Part shown: piece after piece, positions 7,840 to 19,150 of the stretch
Layout: each line of letters begins with the position of its first letter
Numbering within the stretch: position 1 is the stretch's first letter
Virus record (IMG/VR): IMGVR_UViG_3300048929_000035
Coordinates: 1-20,305 of that record
Strand: one strand, 5' to 3'
DNA from: a virus
DNA: 20,305 nt
Translations under genes and position numbers: made by a program
The notes under the pieces: model-generated
The model's database searches: none
Told to the model about the DNA's origin: nothing
What the model saw: only the letters and a program-made list of their open reading frames with translations

Positions 7840-8066
7840 TACTCACCGTCACCCTCTTCCTCTCCAATCCTCCAAGGCGGCAGGGTGGACGATGTATCAT
7901 CAGGAACAGGAGGGACGGTCAAGATAACGCCAGCACCAAAAAAGACCGTATCTACATGGTCGAAGTTGGCTGCCATTAGATCGGTCATAAAGTTAATACT
8001 GCCTGTGAGTTTGTAGGCGATATTATCCCATGTATCGCCCTGTATGGTTCGATATGTTGTGGTCAA
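7839..8066 (-). CDS. X: Tail protein X with LysM-like domain
   Basis: I set the start at TTG 8066-8064, not at the upstream ATG at 8120. AAGGAGG ends seven bases before this TTG, and the TTG overlaps the tape-measure stop as TTGA. The 75-residue product then begins TTTYRTIQGDTWDNIAYKLT, which is the exact entry into a LysM/P2 gpX-type fold (PF05489). The domain ends in VILTVPPVP, followed by a Pro/acidic tail. In contractile phages this small protein binds the hub and tape-measure end. The reading frame stays open 18 codons upstream, inside the tape-measure gene, so an 93-residue longer form cannot be excluded. Confidence 0.9.
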   Translation of the reverse strand: MTTTYRTIQGDTWDNIAYKLTGSINFMTDLMAANFDHVDTVFFGAGVILTVPPVPDDTSSTLPPWRIGEEEGDGE

Positions 8067-10996
8067 ACCATCGACCTCCTTCTGTTCTTGCGCTCCCACT
8101 CCTGCATATTGGCTTCCCATTCACGTTGAGAATCACGCAGGGACTTTTGGATTACCTTTTCGTCTGCGTTCCCTTGAATAACAATCTGAGGGCTAAACAC
8201 AGGGGCAAAGTGTCCGCCCCCTCCACCATCCATCCCTAATGCACTCCCTGCGGCTGCGTAGAGGTCGCGTGATCGTTTGGAGTTATTGAGGGGTATAATT
8301 GCCTCGTCGTCTCCAGCCTCACCCACAAGACCCAGCGTTGGGCTTGTTACAATGCCGCCATCAGCAAACTTTCTAGGTTTCAGAGGCGGGATTGCCTGTA
8401 GAGGGAACCCGTGTGTATTTTTGACCACATTCGGAAAGTTGTTTGGAGTAGCCATTGGCCCATATTTTTGTTTTATATCAAGCGTGACATCAATCTGCTT
8501 TTCAAAAGGCAAATCACTAAGGCTTTTATTCAGCTCTTGGACCCTGAGTATAGCAGCGTCTACTCGAGCTTTTTCCGTATTGGATAACTGATCATACTTC
8601 CTCATGAGCGATTGCAGCGATTCTCCACCCAGGTCCTGTACTTCGACAAGCCGAACATTTGCGTTATAAAGCTCCTGGAATGAGGCTTTAGAGGACTCCA
8701 TTTCCTTTTCATTCGTTTTCAAGTCTTGCTTGGTCTTATTCATGGTCATTCTTACTGTACCAATGAACTGGTCAAGGCTACCTAAATTAGCCTGATCATA
8801 GTTCATTAATTGCTTTAATTCATCGGTTAGAGGTTTTAATTGTTCATCCCTCTTTGCTCCGGCTGGAGTATTGTTCATGACCTCATTATATTTTATGCGT
8901 AGAGCTATTAATGATGTGAGGACTGACTCACTATTTCCTTGCGCTTTGTTTAATTCTTTTTCTTTGCTCTGAAGGTTATCATATTCCTTCAGTAAATCGG
9001 GAAGCTGTGCCTCCTTGTCAAGAATGGTAATACGTGCTTCCTGCTCTGACGCTTTAGCCATGTTGTTATAAAGATCAAGCTGAGCGCCAGCCTGTTCACG
9101 TAATGCATTGGTTTTAGCATCCTGTGCGGTGATGTAACCGTCACTTTGTTCTACGATCTTCTGTTCAATATCGGCTATTTTCCGTTGAGCTTCAGCAAGT
9201 TCATTAGCTGGAGTTTTGGCGTTGTCGATTTTGGCTTTTAACCGATCGTACTCCTTGACCAAGTTGGTCAGTTTGTCGCGTTGCTTATCCACTGTGTTGT
9301 AATCATCAAAAGCAGTTTTAAGTTCATCACCCATGTTAATCATAGACTCGCGTACAGCCTCTTGATGCTCCTGATACGCAATTAAACCCGCTGTAAGCAA
9401 ACCGACAGCTCCGACAGCAATGCCAGCAGGTGATTTCATAAACGCCAAAGATTTCCCCAGCAATCCCCCAGCTCCAGCCGCTTCGGTTAACTTACCTTTC
9501 AAGTCCCATAAGCCCTTACCAAGTACAGTCACATTTTTACCAATCAAAGCAGCAGGAGTCGCAAGGGCTATAAACTCGATAAAATCCTTATGCTCCTTTG
9601 CCCAGTCCACCATTTCATGAAGCATCGGCAAAAGTTCTTCACCGATTGGGAGAACAACTTCCGTCATAATTTCCCTGCCCAATCCGCGCAACTGCTTGGT
9701 GAATGACTGCATGTTGAGGTTTTTGATTTCTTCCATCGAATTTAGATTTTTATCAAACCCGCCGTTTACATCATTGAGCGCTTGCGTGATGCCTGCGCCC
9801 ATATCCTCGTATTGCGTACCGAACAGGGACACGGAAATAGCATTTCGCTGTTGCAAATCGTCTATGGTTAGTAGTTTGTCATTAACCAACTGCAACGCGT
9901 CACGCGCCTTCATAGACCCGCTAGAAAGACCGTTGAATACCTTTTGACTATCACTCATAACTGAGCTGATAGTTTGTTGCATCTTGGCTACCTGCGTGCC
10001 TTTGCCAGACTGCAACGTTTTAAGCATGGTAGCCGCTGTTGTTTTGCTCGTTTTAGCTACCAGTTGTTGAAACTCTTTGGTTTTCTGTCCGCCCTTGGCT
10101 AGATTTTTGGTAAACTTCTCTATGCCATCCATCGCGAACAGTTCGTCCATTGCTTCAACTACTGCCTTATCACCGCTTACGATACGGATACGGAACTCTT
10201 TGAGGGCATCCGCTATTTTGTCGGTATTGAAAGCCCCTTTTTCAAGCCCGCTGTTGAGTACGCTTAGCATCTGTTGGGCATTGTAGCCAGCGTCTTTGAA
10301 CTGTACTGAATATTCGTTCAGTGTATCCAAAAAGTCGTCAGCGCGATTAAGACCCTTCTGACTACCTTGTGCAATGAGGTTAAAAGCTTCCTCGGATGAT
10401 ATGCCAAGGTTTTTCATCAACACGCCAACCGTCCGCATGGTTTCAGGAACTTCGTATCCGAAAACATCACGCAATGACAACGCTGATTCCGTAGCATCTT
10501 TGAGCGCTTCGCCTGTGAGTCCTGTGGCGTTTTTAACGCCAACCAAAGAGTCGGCTATATCACCGAACCCCTCACCGTAATTAGACTCATACATGCCACG
10601 TATGGAGCTATCTAAATCCTTCATTTCCGTGGCACTGGCTCCAGTTGCCGCCTGAACCTTTAATAAAGATTCCTCAAGCTCACCCACGTCGTTTATCATG
10701 TTGCCAAACGCTCCGGTAACACCGTCTATAATCGCTTTAGCGCCTGTGAAGTCCAGCGCGCGTTGAAATACATCCCCAAACTCACGCGCGCGATCTGTAA
10801 TGTCTCGGATAGAGTCAGGCACATCGTCCGGGATAGGACGTGTGCGCCTTAATTCATCCAAATTCTGTTCCAGCAAAGCTACGTCTCTACTCAAGTCGGT
10901 GAAGCTACGTATGATACGTGGGTCAATCTGTCCCGACAACTCAAACGTTAGTTCATACCGCCTTGAACCTCCCGAACCCCCTCCAGCTCCAGCCAT
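8063..10996 (-). CDS. Tail tape measure protein (TP901-type, 977 aa)
   Basis: This is the largest tail-shaft protein. Residues about 85-400 match the PhageMin_Tail/TP901 domain, with VQAATGASATEMKDLDSSIR, FGDIADSLVGVKNATGLTGE and the VFGYEVPETMRTVGVLMKNL helix. A hydrophobic stretch at about 523-541 (AGIAVGAVGLLTAGLIAY) could insert in the host membrane. Long helical/coiled-coil sequence runs from about 550 to 830. The C-terminus has the Firmicutes signature FADGGIVTSPTLGLVGEAGD and a basic end. The N-terminal Gly-rich MAGAGGGSGG is followed by GAGGT-type pairing upstream of the ATG. At roughly 0.15 nm per residue, the length suggests a tail near 145 nm; that is an estimate. Confidence 0.95.
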   Translation of the reverse strand: MAGAGGGSGGSRRYELTFELSGQIDPRIIRSFTDLSRDVALLEQNLDELRRTRPIPDDVPDSIRDITDRAREFGDVFQRALDFTGAKAIIDGVTGAFGNMINDVGELEESLLKVQAATGASATEMKDLDSSIRGMYESNYGEGFGDIADSLVGVKNATGLTGEALKDATESALSLRDVFGYEVPETMRTVGVLMKNLGISSEEAFNLIAQGSQKGLNRADDFLDTLNEYSVQFKDAGYNAQQMLSVLNSGLEKGAFNTDKIADALKEFRIRIVSGDKAVVEAMDELFAMDGIEKFTKNLAKGGQKTKEFQQLVAKTSKTTAATMLKTLQSGKGTQVAKMQQTISSVMSDSQKVFNGLSSGSMKARDALQLVNDKLLTIDDLQQRNAISVSLFGTQYEDMGAGITQALNDVNGGFDKNLNSMEEIKNLNMQSFTKQLRGLGREIMTEVVLPIGEELLPMLHEMVDWAKEHKDFIEFIALATPAALIGKNVTVLGKGLWDLKGKLTEAAGAGGLLGKSLAFMKSPAGIAVGAVGLLTAGLIAYQEHQEAVRESMINMGDELKTAFDDYNTVDKQRDKLTNLVKEYDRLKAKIDNAKTPANELAEAQRKIADIEQKIVEQSDGYITAQDAKTNALREQAGAQLDLYNNMAKASEQEARITILDKEAQLPDLLKEYDNLQSKEKELNKAQGNSESVLTSLIALRIKYNEVMNNTPAGAKRDEQLKPLTDELKQLMNYDQANLGSLDQFIGTVRMTMNKTKQDLKTNEKEMESSKASFQELYNANVRLVEVQDLGGESLQSLMRKYDQLSNTEKARVDAAILRVQELNKSLSDLPFEKQIDVTLDIKQKYGPMATPNNFPNVVKNTHGFPLQAIPPLKPRKFADGGIVTSPTLGLVGEAGDDEAIIPLNNSKRSRDLYAAAGSALGMDGGGGGHFAPVFSPQIVIQGNADEKVIQKSLRDSQREWEANMQEWERKNRRRSMV

Positions 10997-11012: not shown

Positions 11013-11542
11013 CTACTGTGGATTGTCTTCCTTCCGCCGTTCTTCCACTTTCCTGTGGAAATTGTTCATGGAAATTATCCAATCATCCATTTCAACCATT
11101 GGGCGCTTGATGTAATCTAACGGGCTTCCGCCTGCGAATTTAGCAAGGGCTATACAATCCTCCATCACCTTCGTAGACGGGTTCCCTATTAGATCAAGCC
11201 GTCCAAAAAACGTCGAGACGCTCCAATAACCCGGTTAAAATCTTTGGCTGGGAGCTTTTTCAAGAAGTTTGGGTGCACGCCAGCAGCTTTGGCAGCCAAG
11301 ACAGCCAAATACGCCGGATGTTCATTTTTGAAGGAGGGCAGGAAGTTTTTACCTTGATTCAGAGCGAGAAAATCACCCTCAAGCGCGATAATGTCTTCGC
11401 CTGTGAGTTTGTCGAATTCGAGATTAAGCTCGTTATAATCAACATCCTCCCAATTAACAGAAAGAGACAGCCTAATGACTGTCCCTGTTGGTTGTGCTAC
11501 TTCCTCTTTCATTTGTTCTTCCGTTGTCCCTTGTGCGCTCAT
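11013..11542 (-). CDS. Tail assembly chaperone, frameshifted long form E' (176 aa)
   Basis: Ribosomes that slip back one base at T TTT TTG (11210-11204) leave the E frame after residue 113 and read GGA CGG CTT GAT CTA into a second frame. That frame stays open to the TAG at 11015-11013 and adds 63 residues. The added segment includes DLIGNPSTKVMEDCIALAKF and a helical, charged end (FHRKVEERRKED). This matches the E/E' arrangement of P2 and the G/GT arrangement of lambda, where the long product binds the tape measure. A separate 50-residue product from the ATG at 11165 is possible but has no convincing ribosome site. The stop lies 16 bases before the tape-measure ATG. Confidence 0.85.
11189..11542 (-). 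CDS. E: Tail assembly chaperone, short form E (117 aa)
   Basis: The in-frame product of 117 residues fits the tail assembly chaperone family of P2 E / Mu gp41 type (PF10109). After a flexible start it has TVIRLSLSVNWEDVDYNELN, then FDKLTGEDIIALEGDF and the C-terminal helices AYLAVLAAKAAGVHPNFLKK and FNRVIGASRRFLDGLI. These proteins coat the tape measure during tail-tube assembly and are absent from the finished virion. It lies between tube and tape measure, exactly where expected. AAAGG is ten bases before its ATG. The TAA at 11191-11189 terminates translation when no frameshift occurs. Confidence 0.93.
   Translation of the reverse strand: MSAQGTTEEQMKEEVAQPTGTVIRLSLSVNWEDVDYNELNLEFDKLTGEDIIALEGDFLALNQGKNFLPSFKNEHPAYLAVLAAKAAGVHPNFLKKLPAKDFNRVIGASRRFLDGLI
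11204..11210 (-). promoter_or_regulatory. Programmed -1 ribosomal frameshift site T TTT TTG
   Basis: On the minus strand the heptamer T TTT TTG sits in the correct phase (codons CGT TTT TTG) near the end of the E frame. The same heptamer is known for the P2 E/E' frameshift. Just downstream, GACGG (11203-11199) can pair with CCGTC (11180-11176) around an 18-base loop. The stem begins immediately after the heptamer, closer than the usual spacer, so its stimulating role is uncertain. Confidence 0.85.
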
Positions 11543-11569: not shown

Positions 11570-12097
11570 TTAGGCTTTGCCCAATGCTTTATTGATGTCG
11601 AATAGATCGTCCACACTATTAATGCGACTTACGCTGTTGAGCTTGTCCAATTCGATTACTGCTACGCCGTCAATGAAAACTTTGATGTACGTGACTTCAA
11701 GCGTAGTTGAGGTGCCAGTAGTGGCATTTTGGGCGAAAGTACCAAGGTCAATCCCTTTCCCGATGCCCTTGACCACTATCTTAACGGCCCGTGTTTCCAA
11801 CTCACCGGATGTGGTATTAAACTCGGTAAATGCACCACGAATCTCCAAGGACTTGAGTTTAGTACCTATCAACCCGAATGCATCTTTGTCAATCGTACGC
11901 CAAGCAATGCCAAGTTCCAGTGAGCCGTAATGCCCTGGCGTTGGGATATCAAGTTCCCCCAAGATGCCAGCCCCGGACAACGTATCTGTCAAAGGTGTGA
12001 AGTTGGGCAACGTAATGTCACCCGTGGAAAAATCGGTGCTTGAGCCATTTGCATAGATCGCCATACCGACCAATTTAACCGGAATATTTTTAGCCAA
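11570..12097 (-). CDS. Major tail tube protein (FII-type)
   Basis: The 175-residue protein matches the P2 FII/contractile tail tube family (PF04985). It begins AKNIPVKLVGMAIYANGSST, has TLPNFTPLTDTLSGAGILGE near residues 29-48, and then the strand-rich HYGSLELGIAWRTID. Further on it has RAVKIVVKGIGKGIDLGTF and VTYIKVFIDGVAVIELDKLN, and ends in FDINKALGKA. It forms the inner tube through which DNA passes. It follows the sheath gene by 13 bases, the invariant order in P2-type tails. The start is a TTG (12097-12095) with GGAGG eight bases upstream; no ATG fits better. Confidence 0.95.
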   Translation of the reverse strand: MAKNIPVKLVGMAIYANGSSTDFSTGDITLPNFTPLTDTLSGAGILGELDIPTPGHYGSLELGIAWRTIDKDAFGLIGTKLKSLEIRGAFTEFNTTSGELETRAVKIVVKGIGKGIDLGTFAQNATTGTSTTLEVTYIKVFIDGVAVIELDKLNSVSRINSVDDLFDINKALGKA

Positions 12098-15343: not shown

Positions 15344-15649
15344 TTATTTGGCAGGATTTTCAGCAAGCCATTTTTCATATTGCTCTTGGCGACCTTCTTT
15401 ATTACTGGATGCTGTCAGCCCAAGTGATTCAAGGCGTGCTTTTTGTTCGTTCGGCCCCAATGCAGCAAAATCAGCAGCAGAAACAGTAGTGTCTGTTAAG
15501 CCTGCCGCCTCCTGCGCCGGGGATTCATTCTTATCAATCGCGCCGCTCTCTTGAAGCTCCAAAATCAAATCAATGGGAAGCTGGCCCGTTACGGTTTCAC
15601 CAGCCTCCCACAGTCGTCCGCCATAATTGAGTGGTTTCTTTAAAATCAT
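15344..15649 (-). CDS. Small protein in the lambda FI position (HeH-like C-terminus)
   Basis: This 101-residue acidic protein lies between capsid and connector, the place of lambda FI (DNA packaging accelerator) or of a small head-completion protein. It has a short N-terminal beta element (NYGGRLWEAGETVTGQLP), an Ala/Glu-rich linker, and a C-terminal helix-extended loop-helix-like stretch: FAALGPNEQKARLESLGLTA, then the NKEGRQEQYEKWLAENP helix. The latter recalls small HeH/SAP-like domains found in phage packaging proteins. AGGAGGT is eight bases upstream. The ATG overlaps the capsid stop as ATGA, so translation is coupled to abundant capsid synthesis. The function is inferred from context. 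Confidence 0.75.
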   Translation of the reverse strand: MILKKPLNYGGRLWEAGETVTGQLPIDLILELQESGAIDKNESPAQEAAGLTDTTVSAADFAALGPNEQKARLESLGLTASSNKEGRQEQYEKWLAENPAK

Positions 15650-17685
15650 GCTCCACTACCTCCTGTTGCACCTGGATTTTTGAACATTCCACGGCTGTCC
15701 AGCACGGTTACGCCATAGTCAAAGAAAATACGGAAGTCCATTCCAAGACGGTCAAACGGTACGTCCGTTTCCAACGTTGGTTCTTCTTGGCCTCGCAGAT
15801 AAGTGACCTCAATTGTGTCCGCAATATTCGGGTTAGCTGCCATATACCACGCCGCTGCTGAATATTGATCCAACTCCGCATCCACAATAATATCCATTGA
15901 GTTACGGAAAACGTTGGATACTCCGCTGTGTTTGCCAGATGGGTCCGCATCACTGTGCAGGAATTGATTAGCTCCAGTTTCCAAAGAAGCAGGAACCAAC
16001 AAAAATTGTGGTGCGATATTTAGCGTAGCTTCCCCGCGCTGTCCCTTTTGTGTTCTCATAGCCGTGCGACCTTCAGACATTGAAACAGTATTGATATCTG
16101 CCCCAGTCCCCAGGTTCTTATGGTCCGCGCTGAACAACGCTTTACCATCCCAAATAAGAGGGTTTGAGGCCAGCATTTTATACACCAAAGCGTTGATACC
16201 ACGTTTCGCCGAGATTACATAGGCTTGTGGCACTTTGGAAAGCATGTCCAGGTCGTCATTAATGAACGCTTCCCGTGTAAATCCCCACCGCTTGGAGTAT
16301 GTGAGCACTGCTTTTGTGACCTTTTCATCCTTCATCGCTGCATCATATGGAATTGGAGCGTTTTGCGCTGTCAACTCCAAACCACCAGCCTCAGAAATGC
16401 GATAGTGTTCTGCTGCCTTAAAATCGGAGTTACTACCACGACCTGTCCAATGTTGGAACGTGGTTGGAGCCTCTGCGTAGGCTTGTGACAGCGTTTTGTT
16501 GGCGGCATTAGAAATAATGCCTTGGAATGTGCTATCAGGCGACAGAGCGCGGCGTAAAAGGTCCTCGTCACGCAACAAATGCGCTCCCGACTCTCCAGCA
16601 CGGACCAAGCACTCAACAGCCAAATCACGCAACCGCAGCGAGCGTAGTTCTGGCGCCCCCGGCGCAGGCTTTGCAACACCTCTGCCTGCACGCATAAGCA
16701 GGGCATCGGATGCAGCAGCACGGAATTTGTCCGTTTCCTCTGTTGTGACCTGTACACCGGAGGCGTGTGGTTTACGATCTTCGATTTGTTTTTGCAAGAT
16801 GGCCTGACGAACAAAATCCAATGTACTTCCATCTGCAATATAATTAGCAGCGTCCACGCCGAAGTTGCGGCACAGTGCATTAATTTCTGTTACACGGGTA
16901 CGTTCTGCCGCTGTCGCTGCCCGAATACTTTCTTCATTAATAGGTGGAGCTGGTGGTGCCTGTGGTTCGCCGGATCGTTGGCCTGCGCCTGCCGGGGTTC
17001 CGCCTCCAATTTCTCCACCTGTATCCGGCGCGTGCATCAATCCTTGTGCGGCTAAAGCCAGCATTTTTAATCCCTTCATTCCTTCATCCTCGCTTTCATT
17101 TTGTAAATTACGCCCTATACCAACTGACGGATCGGCAGGTGTAGGCTCGATGCTTATTTCAAACGGCTGCCATTTAAGAGCCACATAAGCTGGCCCGGTG
17201 AATCGACCATTGGCGGAAGTCTTACCCGCCTTAACTTCTTCCCAGGAGCTGACTTCATAGCCAACTGATACGCCTTTGATGGTCCCTTTTTTAACCTTCT
17301 GAAACACTCGGTCACTGTCAGGGTCGTCGTCAAACTCCACAATAGCTCGTGCCTTCCGCTCGGTATCATCAGTCCATACCTGTTTAATGGTACCGATTGG
17401 CATATTTCCATAATTCGGGTCACGACCATGTGCGAAAAGTAAAACCCCGACATCGTTTAACCTAGAAAGGTCAAGCGCTCCGGGGTCATGAGATAGAATT
17501 TCATCACCAAACCAGCGTCCATAAGGGGCCTCGCTTGAAAATGATAGCTCAATCGTTCGGTCCTCTTCATTTACCGATTCAGTATTGATAGTCAATACAC
17601 GAGATAGTTGCTTATCCGGTACCGTTGCATTTCTATGCAGCGTCATCGGCATCTTCTGCATCTTTATTTTCTTCATCTGGCTCAT
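15646..17685 (-). CDS. Fused prohead protease / scaffold / major capsid protein (679 aa)
   Basis: One reading frame joins three parts. Residues about 25-190 are an HK97-type prohead serine protease (PF04586): the catalytic His is in LLFAHGRDP (H86) and the Ser in IKGVSVGYE (S140), with a strand FEISIEPTPADP near 175-186. Residues about 195-315 form a Gly/Pro-rich then helical linker (AATAAERTRVTEINALCRNF), a candidate scaffold or delta domain. Residues about 320-679 are the HK97-fold capsid of Mu gpT type, with ALFSADHKNLGTG and FLLVPASLETGANQF. I chose the ATG at 17685 because GGAG lies six bases upstream; a longer frame from 17742 lacks such a site. The gene overlaps the portal by 53 bases. 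Confidence 0.93.
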   Translation of the reverse strand: MSQMKKIKMQKMPMTLHRNATVPDKQLSRVLTINTESVNEEDRTIELSFSSEAPYGRWFGDEILSHDPGALDLSRLNDVGVLLFAHGRDPNYGNMPIGTIKQVWTDDTERKARAIVEFDDDPDSDRVFQKVKKGTIKGVSVGYEVSSWEEVKAGKTSANGRFTGPAYVALKWQPFEISIEPTPADPSVGIGRNLQNESEDEGMKGLKMLALAAQGLMHAPDTGGEIGGGTPAGAGQRSGEPQAPPAPPINEESIRAATAAERTRVTEINALCRNFGVDAANYIADGSTLDFVRQAILQKQIEDRKPHASGVQVTTEETDKFRAAASDALLMRAGRGVAKPAPGAPELRSLRLRDLAVECLVRAGESGAHLLRDEDLLRRALSPDSTFQGIISNAANKTLSQAYAEAPTTFQHWTGRGSNSDFKAAEHYRISEAGGLELTAQNAPIPYDAAMKDEKVTKAVLTYSKRWGFTREAFINDDLDMLSKVPQAYVISAKRGINALVYKMLASNPLIWDGKALFSADHKNLGTGADINTVSMSEGRTAMRTQKGQRGEATLNIAPQFLLVPASLETGANQFLHSDADPSGKHSGVSNVFRNSMDIIVDAELDQYSAAAWYMAANPNIADTIEVTYLRGQEEPTLETDVPFDRLGMDFRIFFDYGVTVLDSRGMFKNPGATGGSGA
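17064..17091 (-). promoter_or_regulatory. Candidate internal translation starts at the protease/capsid junction
   Basis: Within the fusion gene, GAGG (17091-17088) is eight bases before an in-frame ATG at 17079-17077 (residue 203). AAGGGA (17076-17071) is six bases before another in-frame ATG at 17064-17062 (residue 208). Both lie just after the protease domain. Initiation here would yield a protease-free scaffold-capsid product of about 477 or 472 residues, similar in principle to the nested C/Nu3 genes of lambda. The motifs are visible; their use is inference. Confidence 0.4.
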
Positions 17686-19150
17686 TGTCTGCTCCTTCCT
17701 TTGGAATATCCGTGGCTGTCGGTTCTGGACCGGACAACTCACGTATCAATTGCTGTTCTGCTGCACGCTGCGCCACCACATCACGCCAATCCTCCCCGCG
17801 CTCGGCGCATATACGGGCTAAAGTGTCTTGGTTGGAAGCAAGAGCTGTTTCATTTGCTTTCACCTCCTTCAAAGGGTCAATCCATGTCGAACCCGGTGGA
17901 ATCCATGCATGTGTGGTATATTGCTCTTTATTTTGTTGGTATTTGGGTAAATTCAACTGGCCCGTAAGCACCATAGCGTCCAAAAACTCCAGATAAATTG
18001 GAGTAAGCACACGCTCTATCAACATTTTTTGCAGTTTCTTATACAATTTACGGTCTTCAATCAATCCCTGGCGTGCAGAAGAATAGTTGACCTGGGACAG
18101 ATCCCGCGACACGGCTTCATAGCTAAGGCCGATTCCGGCAGATGTGAGCCGGACCAATGTGGTAATCCATTCCTTGGCATTCGATGCTTGACCGGACGGA
18201 ACAACCGTCTGGACTTCATCACCGGGATTTAGTTCCCCGATCATCCCCGGAGCAAGTGACACTCCAGAATAGTCAATCGTTTCGCTACTGGTTCTCACTC
18301 CCCGCCCCGCACCACCGGAAGGAACATCCTTTTTAATGAATACAGACAAGCAAGCGAGGACACGCTCCTTTATGGATACAGCTTCAACAAATTGATTCGC
18401 ATCTTTGACGCGTGGTAAAGCTGTTGCCAAATTGGATACTTCCCTGACCTGTTGCGGCGAAGTCTTCTTATATAAAAAAATAACGTCTTTGGCTGGAATT
18501 CTGACCGTTTTAACGGGATTGAGAAAATAACCATCTACGTCCTTAAAATGGTAGGCCACAGGTCTGTTGTATTCGTCAATCTCTACACCTTCAACAATCC
18601 GGTTGCCTTCTCCCGGCGTAACGATGGTGTTTAATTCCTCAACTGACCGAACTTGAAGTTTGAAAGGGAATTTATCATCCTCAACGTAGACCTTAACCAA
18701 GAAAATACCGCCATCCACCACATAACGACGAATAGCCATTTCCTCTATCTCTTCAAGCGATTGCGTAGCGGTCAGGTCAACATTTTCCGCCTTGCAAAAT
18801 TCTTTCCAAAGCCTTTCAATCTGCTGATTCAGCTCACCGTTGATATTCCCAGGAATGTCATGCGCTAATTTTGCTTGGAGCATAATCCCGGTTCCGACGA
18901 CATTGCGTTCAAATGCAGACAAGATCGCCCCGCCGATATCACTATTACGCTCCATGTCCTGCGCCCGTGCCCGGATTAACGATCGTTCCGCCGCCTTCAT
19001 GTGTTCGTTAGGGGTTTGGGATGGGTTCCAGTTATGATTGAGCCGTCCACGGCTGCCTGAATCGAAAACATCCATCCCGGTTCGCCACGCCATACGCTTA
19101 TATGCCCACCTTGGGCTTACAGCGGCTATTGATCGGTCCAGCCAATTCAA
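17633..19150 (-). CDS. Portal protein, lambda family (GpB-like, 505 aa)
   Basis: Hallmarks of Phage_portal_2 (PF05136) are clear. The N-terminus has RSIAAVSPRWAYKRMAWRT, and residues 53-95 hold the RSLIRARAQDMERNSDIGGA and ERNVVGTGI motifs. The helix DLSQVNYSSARQGLIEDRKL follows at about 350-369, then THAWIPPGSTWIDPLKEVKA near 413-432. Portal rings form the DNA channel at one capsid vertex and dock the terminase. The final 40 residues are strongly acidic (DEENKDAEDADDAA), encoded in the same DNA as the Lys-rich protease start. The start is TTG 19150-19148 with GGGAGGT seven bases upstream. A T TTT TTA run at 18479-18473 is in slippery phase but leads straight to a stop after one codon. Confidence 0.96.
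   Translation of the reverse strand: MNWLDRSIAAVSPRWAYKRMAWRTGMDVFDSGSRGRLNHNWNPSQTPNEHMKAAERSLIRARAQDMERNSDIGGAILSAFERNVVGTGIMLQAKLAHDIPGNINGELNQQIERLWKEFCKAENVDLTATQSLEEIEEMAIRRYVVDGGIFLVKVYVEDDKFPFKLQVRSVEELNTIVTPGEGNRIVEGVEIDEYNRPVAYHFKDVDGYFLNPVKTVRIPAKDVIFLYKKTSPQQVREVSNLATALPRVKDANQFVEAVSIKERVLACLSVFIKKDVPSGGAGRGVRTSSETIDYSGVSLAPGMIGELNPGDEVQTVVPSGQASNAKEWITTLVRLTSAGIGLSYEAVSRDLSQVNYSSARQGLIEDRKLYKKLQKMLIERVLTPIYLEFLDAMVLTGQLNLPKYQQNKEQYTTHAWIPPGSTWIDPLKEVKANETALASNQDTLARICAERGEDWRDVVAQRAAEQQLIRELSGPEPTATDIPKEGADNEPDEENKDAEDADDAA

Follow-up and report, generated by a model that had tools for sequence, protein, structure and literature searches.

Gene content of the locus and layout of the slip site

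Is the reading frame that lies open between the tail assembly chaperone gene and the tape measure gene of this prophage a small gene with a start codon of its own, a chance opening, or an extension of the upstream gene reached by programmed −1 frameshifting, as the first-pass annotation had proposed? The window, by which we mean the whole 20,305-nt stretch analyzed (IMG/VR record IMGVR_UViG_3300048929_000035), is the morphogenesis module of a contractile-tail prophage, encoded on the minus strand (to which all coordinates of the window given below refer) in the order terminase, portal, protease/capsid fusion, sheath, tube, E, tape measure, X, D, V, W, J, I and fiber. Module genes without a search of their own carry names that we assume from their position and from knowledge of phage P2; the P2-type order of sheath, tube, E/E′, tape measure, U/X and D is present. 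The prohead protease and the major capsid protein are joined in one 698-aa ORF (15646-17742; NCBIfam NF045541, E = 4.8e-182), a type of fusion that has already been described. The nearest named hosts of related loci are Paenibacillus, with ~66% identity in the E protein.

The gene E-like chaperone (11189-11542), 117 aa long in the zero frame, is flanked by the gene for an FII-like tail tube protein (11570-12097; Pfam PF04985 Phage_tube, E = 4.8e-34) and that for a 977-aa tape measure protein (8063-10996; Pfam PhageMin_Tail, E = 4.8e-19, and several PHROG tape-measure families). The E protein matches Pfam PF10109, Phage_TAC_7 (E, 41, 14), with E = 3.8e-5 and 24.1 bits, which is 0.9 bits below the curated cut-off of 25 bits, and the PHROG tail assembly chaperone family phrog_3140 with E = 2.6e-19. 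The E+E′ fusion aligns to phrog_3140 as far as profile position 271 of 274, and this profile therefore already spans the extension.

Gene E ends at TAA (11191-11189), followed by TAG in the same zero frame. The heptamer T TTT TTG (11204-11210) lies in zero-frame slippery phase, its first T being the third base of CGT and its TTT the sixth codon before the E stop, exactly as the first-pass annotation had placed it. The −1 frame that a ribosome would enter after the slip (11013-11204) comprises 63 codons, from GGA (11204-11202) to position 11016, and is closed by the stop TAG (11015-11013), 16 nt before the ATG of the tape measure gene (10996), whose own GAGG is found at 11008-11005; these counts, too, agree with the earlier ones. 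The sole ATG ahead of the conserved part of the extension in its own frame (11163-11165) yields an ORF of 50 residues, one of the two forms, besides a plain gap, in which simple annotation had been expected to leave it.

The residues at the junction depend on the mode of slippage. If the tRNAs in the P and A sites slip in tandem, TTG is decoded as Leu113 and the junction would read Phe112-Leu113-Gly114; if the P-site tRNA alone slips while the A site is still empty, it would read Phe112-Phe113-Gly114. The F113-G114 junction named in the first-pass annotation thus holds for P-site slippage and fails for tandem slippage. The predicted Lys-C junction peptide, DFNRVIGASRRF(L/F)GRLDLIGNPSTK, separates the two modes by its variable residue, L or F, and the predicted tryptic fragment comprises four residues only, FLGR or FFGR.

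Conservation of the heptamer among relatives

Relatives were gathered by the zero-frame E protein alone, so that the sampling favored neither the heptamer nor the extension. The first set, drawn from IMG/VR, GTDB genomes and phage records, consisted of 80 distinct loci, in which we looked for T TTT TTN in slippery phase and no more than 16 codons from the E stop. This heptamer is present in 76 of the 80 homologous E genes and absent from all of the 141 other ORFs in these loci that reach 150 aa or more. A second search, of Paenibacillus and Brevibacillus-family genomes, added 33 distinct loci, 32 of them with the heptamer; the lone exception, apparently a dead copy, is interrupted by an in-frame stop. 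Hence, the occurrence of an in-phase heptamer near the E stop exceeds chance. Furthermore, the heptamer is fixed at a conserved Phe-Leu, its distance to the E stop being 13, 19, 22, 37, 46 or 55 nt, and in every intact relative the −1 extension runs beyond that stop.

Several loci deserve separate mention. Four (L013, L023, L025 and L075) retain the conserved −1 extension, but at the 3′ end of E they have TTTTTAT(C/T/A)TTGGG where the heptamer would be; because the extension is kept without the heptamer, these loci must use a non-canonical slip site. The E stop is 55 nt past the heptamer in five loci of a Brevibacillus-family genome group (L146, L147, L151, L153 and L154), and in one genome, G110, the locus is present four times. 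Most of the named relatives of E belong to Bacillota; one locus (L017), with 50% E identity, comes from a scaffold of Pseudoxanthomonas sp. J31, an assembly labeled as a gammaproteobacterium, a placement that possibly reflects contamination or a distant host jump.

Selection on the extension in the −1 frame

The extensions of the relatives share the consensus ..GL...(R/M)..LS..T.TP..YWL..P..EL..W. Common to those of 60 non-redundant relatives are a Gly-Leu soon after the slip, an (S/A) stretch, T.TP..YWL and P..EL, and the Trp is conserved in 53 of the 60. Substitutions in the extension are codon-periodic, numbering 161, 98 and 303 at codon positions 1, 2 and 3, respectively, in 18 pairs. The pN/pS ratio in the −1 frame is 0.14 between the window and L033 and 0.16 between the window and L034. 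The extension is under purifying selection in this frame. The first-pass annotation had looked to an alignment of the extension in related prophages for coding conservation and had regarded a lack of selection among homologues as evidence against its reading; the ratios obtained are well below 1. A single short open frame can appear fortuitously, and the −1 frame could have been such a case or the relic of a frame since inactivated, but the same frame, length and protein motif recur in more than 100 distinct relatives and the selection test refutes such an origin, the probability of which we consider practically nil.

A rival reading is a separate small gene of ~50 codons, starting at ATG 11165 and translated through translational coupling or from an internal ribosome site, instead of a fusion. 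The window does have this ATG, and small ORFs are annotated in the related phages Lily, FP_Taranis and Pd_22F. The stretch ahead of any usable start speaks against such a gene. From the E stop up to the first start codon that both members of a pair could use, the pooled pN/pS in the same frame is 0.27, as compared to 0.33 in the rest of the extension (17 pairs, no member shared between pairs), so that the pre-start stretch is constrained no more weakly. Being constrained although no start codon is found within it, the stretch following the E stop must be translated. Moreover, ATG is absent before the conserved motif in 17 of the 60 relatives, whereas ATG, GTG and TTG are all absent in 9 of the 60, and one locus (L073) has no start codon anywhere in the extension. 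The SD-like AAGG located two bases before ATG 11165 in the window is AAAT in L033 and L034, and an independent gene would leave the exact-phase slippery heptamer unexplained. With constraint ahead of the starts and relatives devoid of starts, a separate gene is strongly disfavored for the family; we reject an independent start at ATG 11165 at the family level and judge the separate gene very unlikely, in line with the earlier view that the −1 frame has no convincing start of its own.

The extension matched no family in Pfam or NCBIfam, and that of the window, taken alone, is too divergent to match phrog_3140 or phrog_30074. The extensions of 35 of 53 relatives match phrog_30074, a PHROG family of unknown function, which can now be identified as the E′ portion of the tail assembly chaperone. 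In these phages the E′ extension is either divided or overlooked by gene callers, an annotation gap that the present analysis corrects.

Candidate stimulators upstream and downstream of the heptamer

The first-pass annotation had singled out as unusual a five-pair stem, GACGG (11203-11199)/CCGTC (11180-11176), that follows the heptamer without a spacer. The stem can be drawn, but its conservation is at the level of chance, since a five-pair stem is found at the same place in 12 of 60 relatives against 9.5 expected, and it is displaced by competing folds, its pair probability in the window dropping from 0.99 when 40 nt are folded to 0.17 with 60 nt and 0.02 with 80 nt. With the heptamer in the P and A sites, a stem abutting it would sit within the ribosome footprint, inside the mRNA channel; stimulatory stems usually start ~5-9 nt after the heptamer. 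We therefore reject the five-pair stem as a stimulator. A stable stem at the usual distance was not found in the window and, among the relatives, only in a Paenibacillus clade; the sequence downstream of the heptamer in the window displays no excess of structure over synonymous shuffles (z ~0).

Across the family, 60-nt windows starting 10-20 nt past the heptamer have a mean z of ~−1.3, as against values nearer −0.2 at most other places, and this excess of downstream structure survives synonymous shuffling. In the Paenibacillus clade, the helix has a GGC/GCC base 8 nt after the heptamer, with 87.6% of cells paired and 13 cells changed on both sides (compensatory), and its covariation score, uncorrected for relatedness, is reached by 0 of 500 shuffles. 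The hairpin, a strong one, is located at L121:1436-1507 (minus strand) and is present also in L125-L129, L132, L134-L137, L047 and L063; it starts just beyond, or touches, the E stop. Its position and covariation suggest a classical downstream stimulator confined to one Paenibacillus clade and absent from the window. A second clade (L061, L064, L065, L066, L054, L051 and L082) carries a 19-pair hairpin ~37 nt after T TTT TTA, in which four pairs are changed on both sides; the support is weaker than for the Paenibacillus helix, and the hairpin is too far away for a standard stimulator. Neither hairpin, at 8 nt or 37 nt downstream, was found in the window.

Upstream of the heptamer, the window contains a Shine-Dalgarno (SD)-like GGAG (11221-11224; anti-SD duplex −6.2 kcal/mol), a candidate stimulator of the shift. 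Its spacing of 10 nt is within the 9-14 nt given for SD-stimulated −1 shifting of the dnaX type (PMC5009743). Anti-SD pairing of the family 4-14 nt upstream of the heptamer is reached by only 1 of 500 synonymous shuffles, and the enrichment was repeated in 14 independent new sequences (9 of 500 shuffles); a control stretch 30-40 nt upstream gave no anti-SD excess, with 372 of 500 shuffles reaching the family value. For the window alone, 6% of synonymous shuffles reach its SD-like pairing, so that its own site, taken alone, is no more than suggestive. On these sequence comparisons, GGAG appears more plausible as a stimulator than the five-pair stem.

These signals also bear on whether the fusion could arise from the transcript instead of the ribosome. 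Bacterial transcription is known to slip on homopolymers, and the site is a run of six Ts, on which altered-length mRNAs might be produced, with the fusion translated from the shifted transcript. However, in the relatives T6 is almost always followed by G or A and kept in strict slippery phase, and both the SD-like enrichment upstream and the stem-loop 8 nt downstream in some clades point to the ribosome. The corresponding shift of P2 is, furthermore, described as translational (PMC3091744). Slippage during transcription accordingly strikes us as extremely improbable.

Proposed mechanism

The conserved heptamer, the protein encoded in the −1 frame, the position of the gene and the pattern of selection support the reading of the first-pass annotation, and, as judged from sequence, the feature is very probably the E/E′ tail-assembly-chaperone −1 frameshift of a P2-like contractile-tail prophage. 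We infer that most ribosomes would terminate at the E stop, yielding the 117-aa chaperone, and that a minority would slip back by one base on U UUU UUG, tRNA-Phe and tRNA-Leu re-pairing on UUU UUU, an event to which the GGAG 10 nt upstream may contribute. The slipped ribosomes would read 63 more codons and produce a fusion of ~176 aa. If their roles resemble those of lambda gpG/gpGT and P2 E/E+E′, the N-terminal part common to both products would serve to coat the tape measure protein, and the low-copy extension would bring in tube subunits. Such frameshifting is an established mechanism, and the observation is real but ordinary; new to the specialist are only the comparative set and the clade-specific stimulators. 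The more than 100 aligned sites constitute a natural series for studying how slip-site stimulators set the chaperone ratio.

Comparison with P2 and lambda

Lambda gpG/gpGT, like the chaperone frameshift of long-tailed phages in general, is likewise a pair of chaperones with a common N-terminus, arising from a −1 slip shortly before the tape measure gene. It differs from the system in the window by its slippery sequence, GGGAAAG, and by its unrelated protein sequence. The tail chaperone frameshifts of lambda and P2, the ratio in lambda and the binding to tape measure and tube have been described, the frameshift efficiency of P2 being 2-3 fold higher (PMC5009743).

For P2, we relied on GenBank record NC_001895 and on two publications (PMC5009743, PMC3091744). 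The record carries the identical heptamer T TTT TTG and annotates E, E+E′ and the −1 frameshift site, confirming the earlier statement that P2 E/E′ uses the same heptamer. In P2, too, E/E′ is flanked by the tube and tape measure genes, and the E protein matches the same family, PF10109. The extensions are 57 aa in P2 and 63 in the window, where the length falls in the range of ~50-70 codons expected of the P2 type; E′ of P2 overlaps T, whereas that of the window stops 16 nt short of the tape measure gene. The window extension has no match to Pfam PF06528 (Phage_P2_GpE), and a comparison of the extension family with P2-type E′ (hhalign) is weak (probability 26%, E = 7e-4), with the ..L.EL..W.. 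end in common. The E′ domain has likely descended from P2 GpE, as far as this sequence resemblance indicates.

The downstream signals differ as well: P2-like Burkholderia phages conserve TTTTTTG and are reported without downstream hairpins (PMC3091744), whereas the Paenibacillus clade of the L121 type has one. It is conceivable, although we put this forward tentatively and as somewhat less than an even bet, that in this mainly Bacillota P2-like branch the slip is set by signals that P2 lacks, namely an SD-like sequence ~10 nt upstream, that of the window included, to which some clades would add a covarying stem-loop 8 nt downstream, so that different clades would tune the chaperone ratio by different stimulators.
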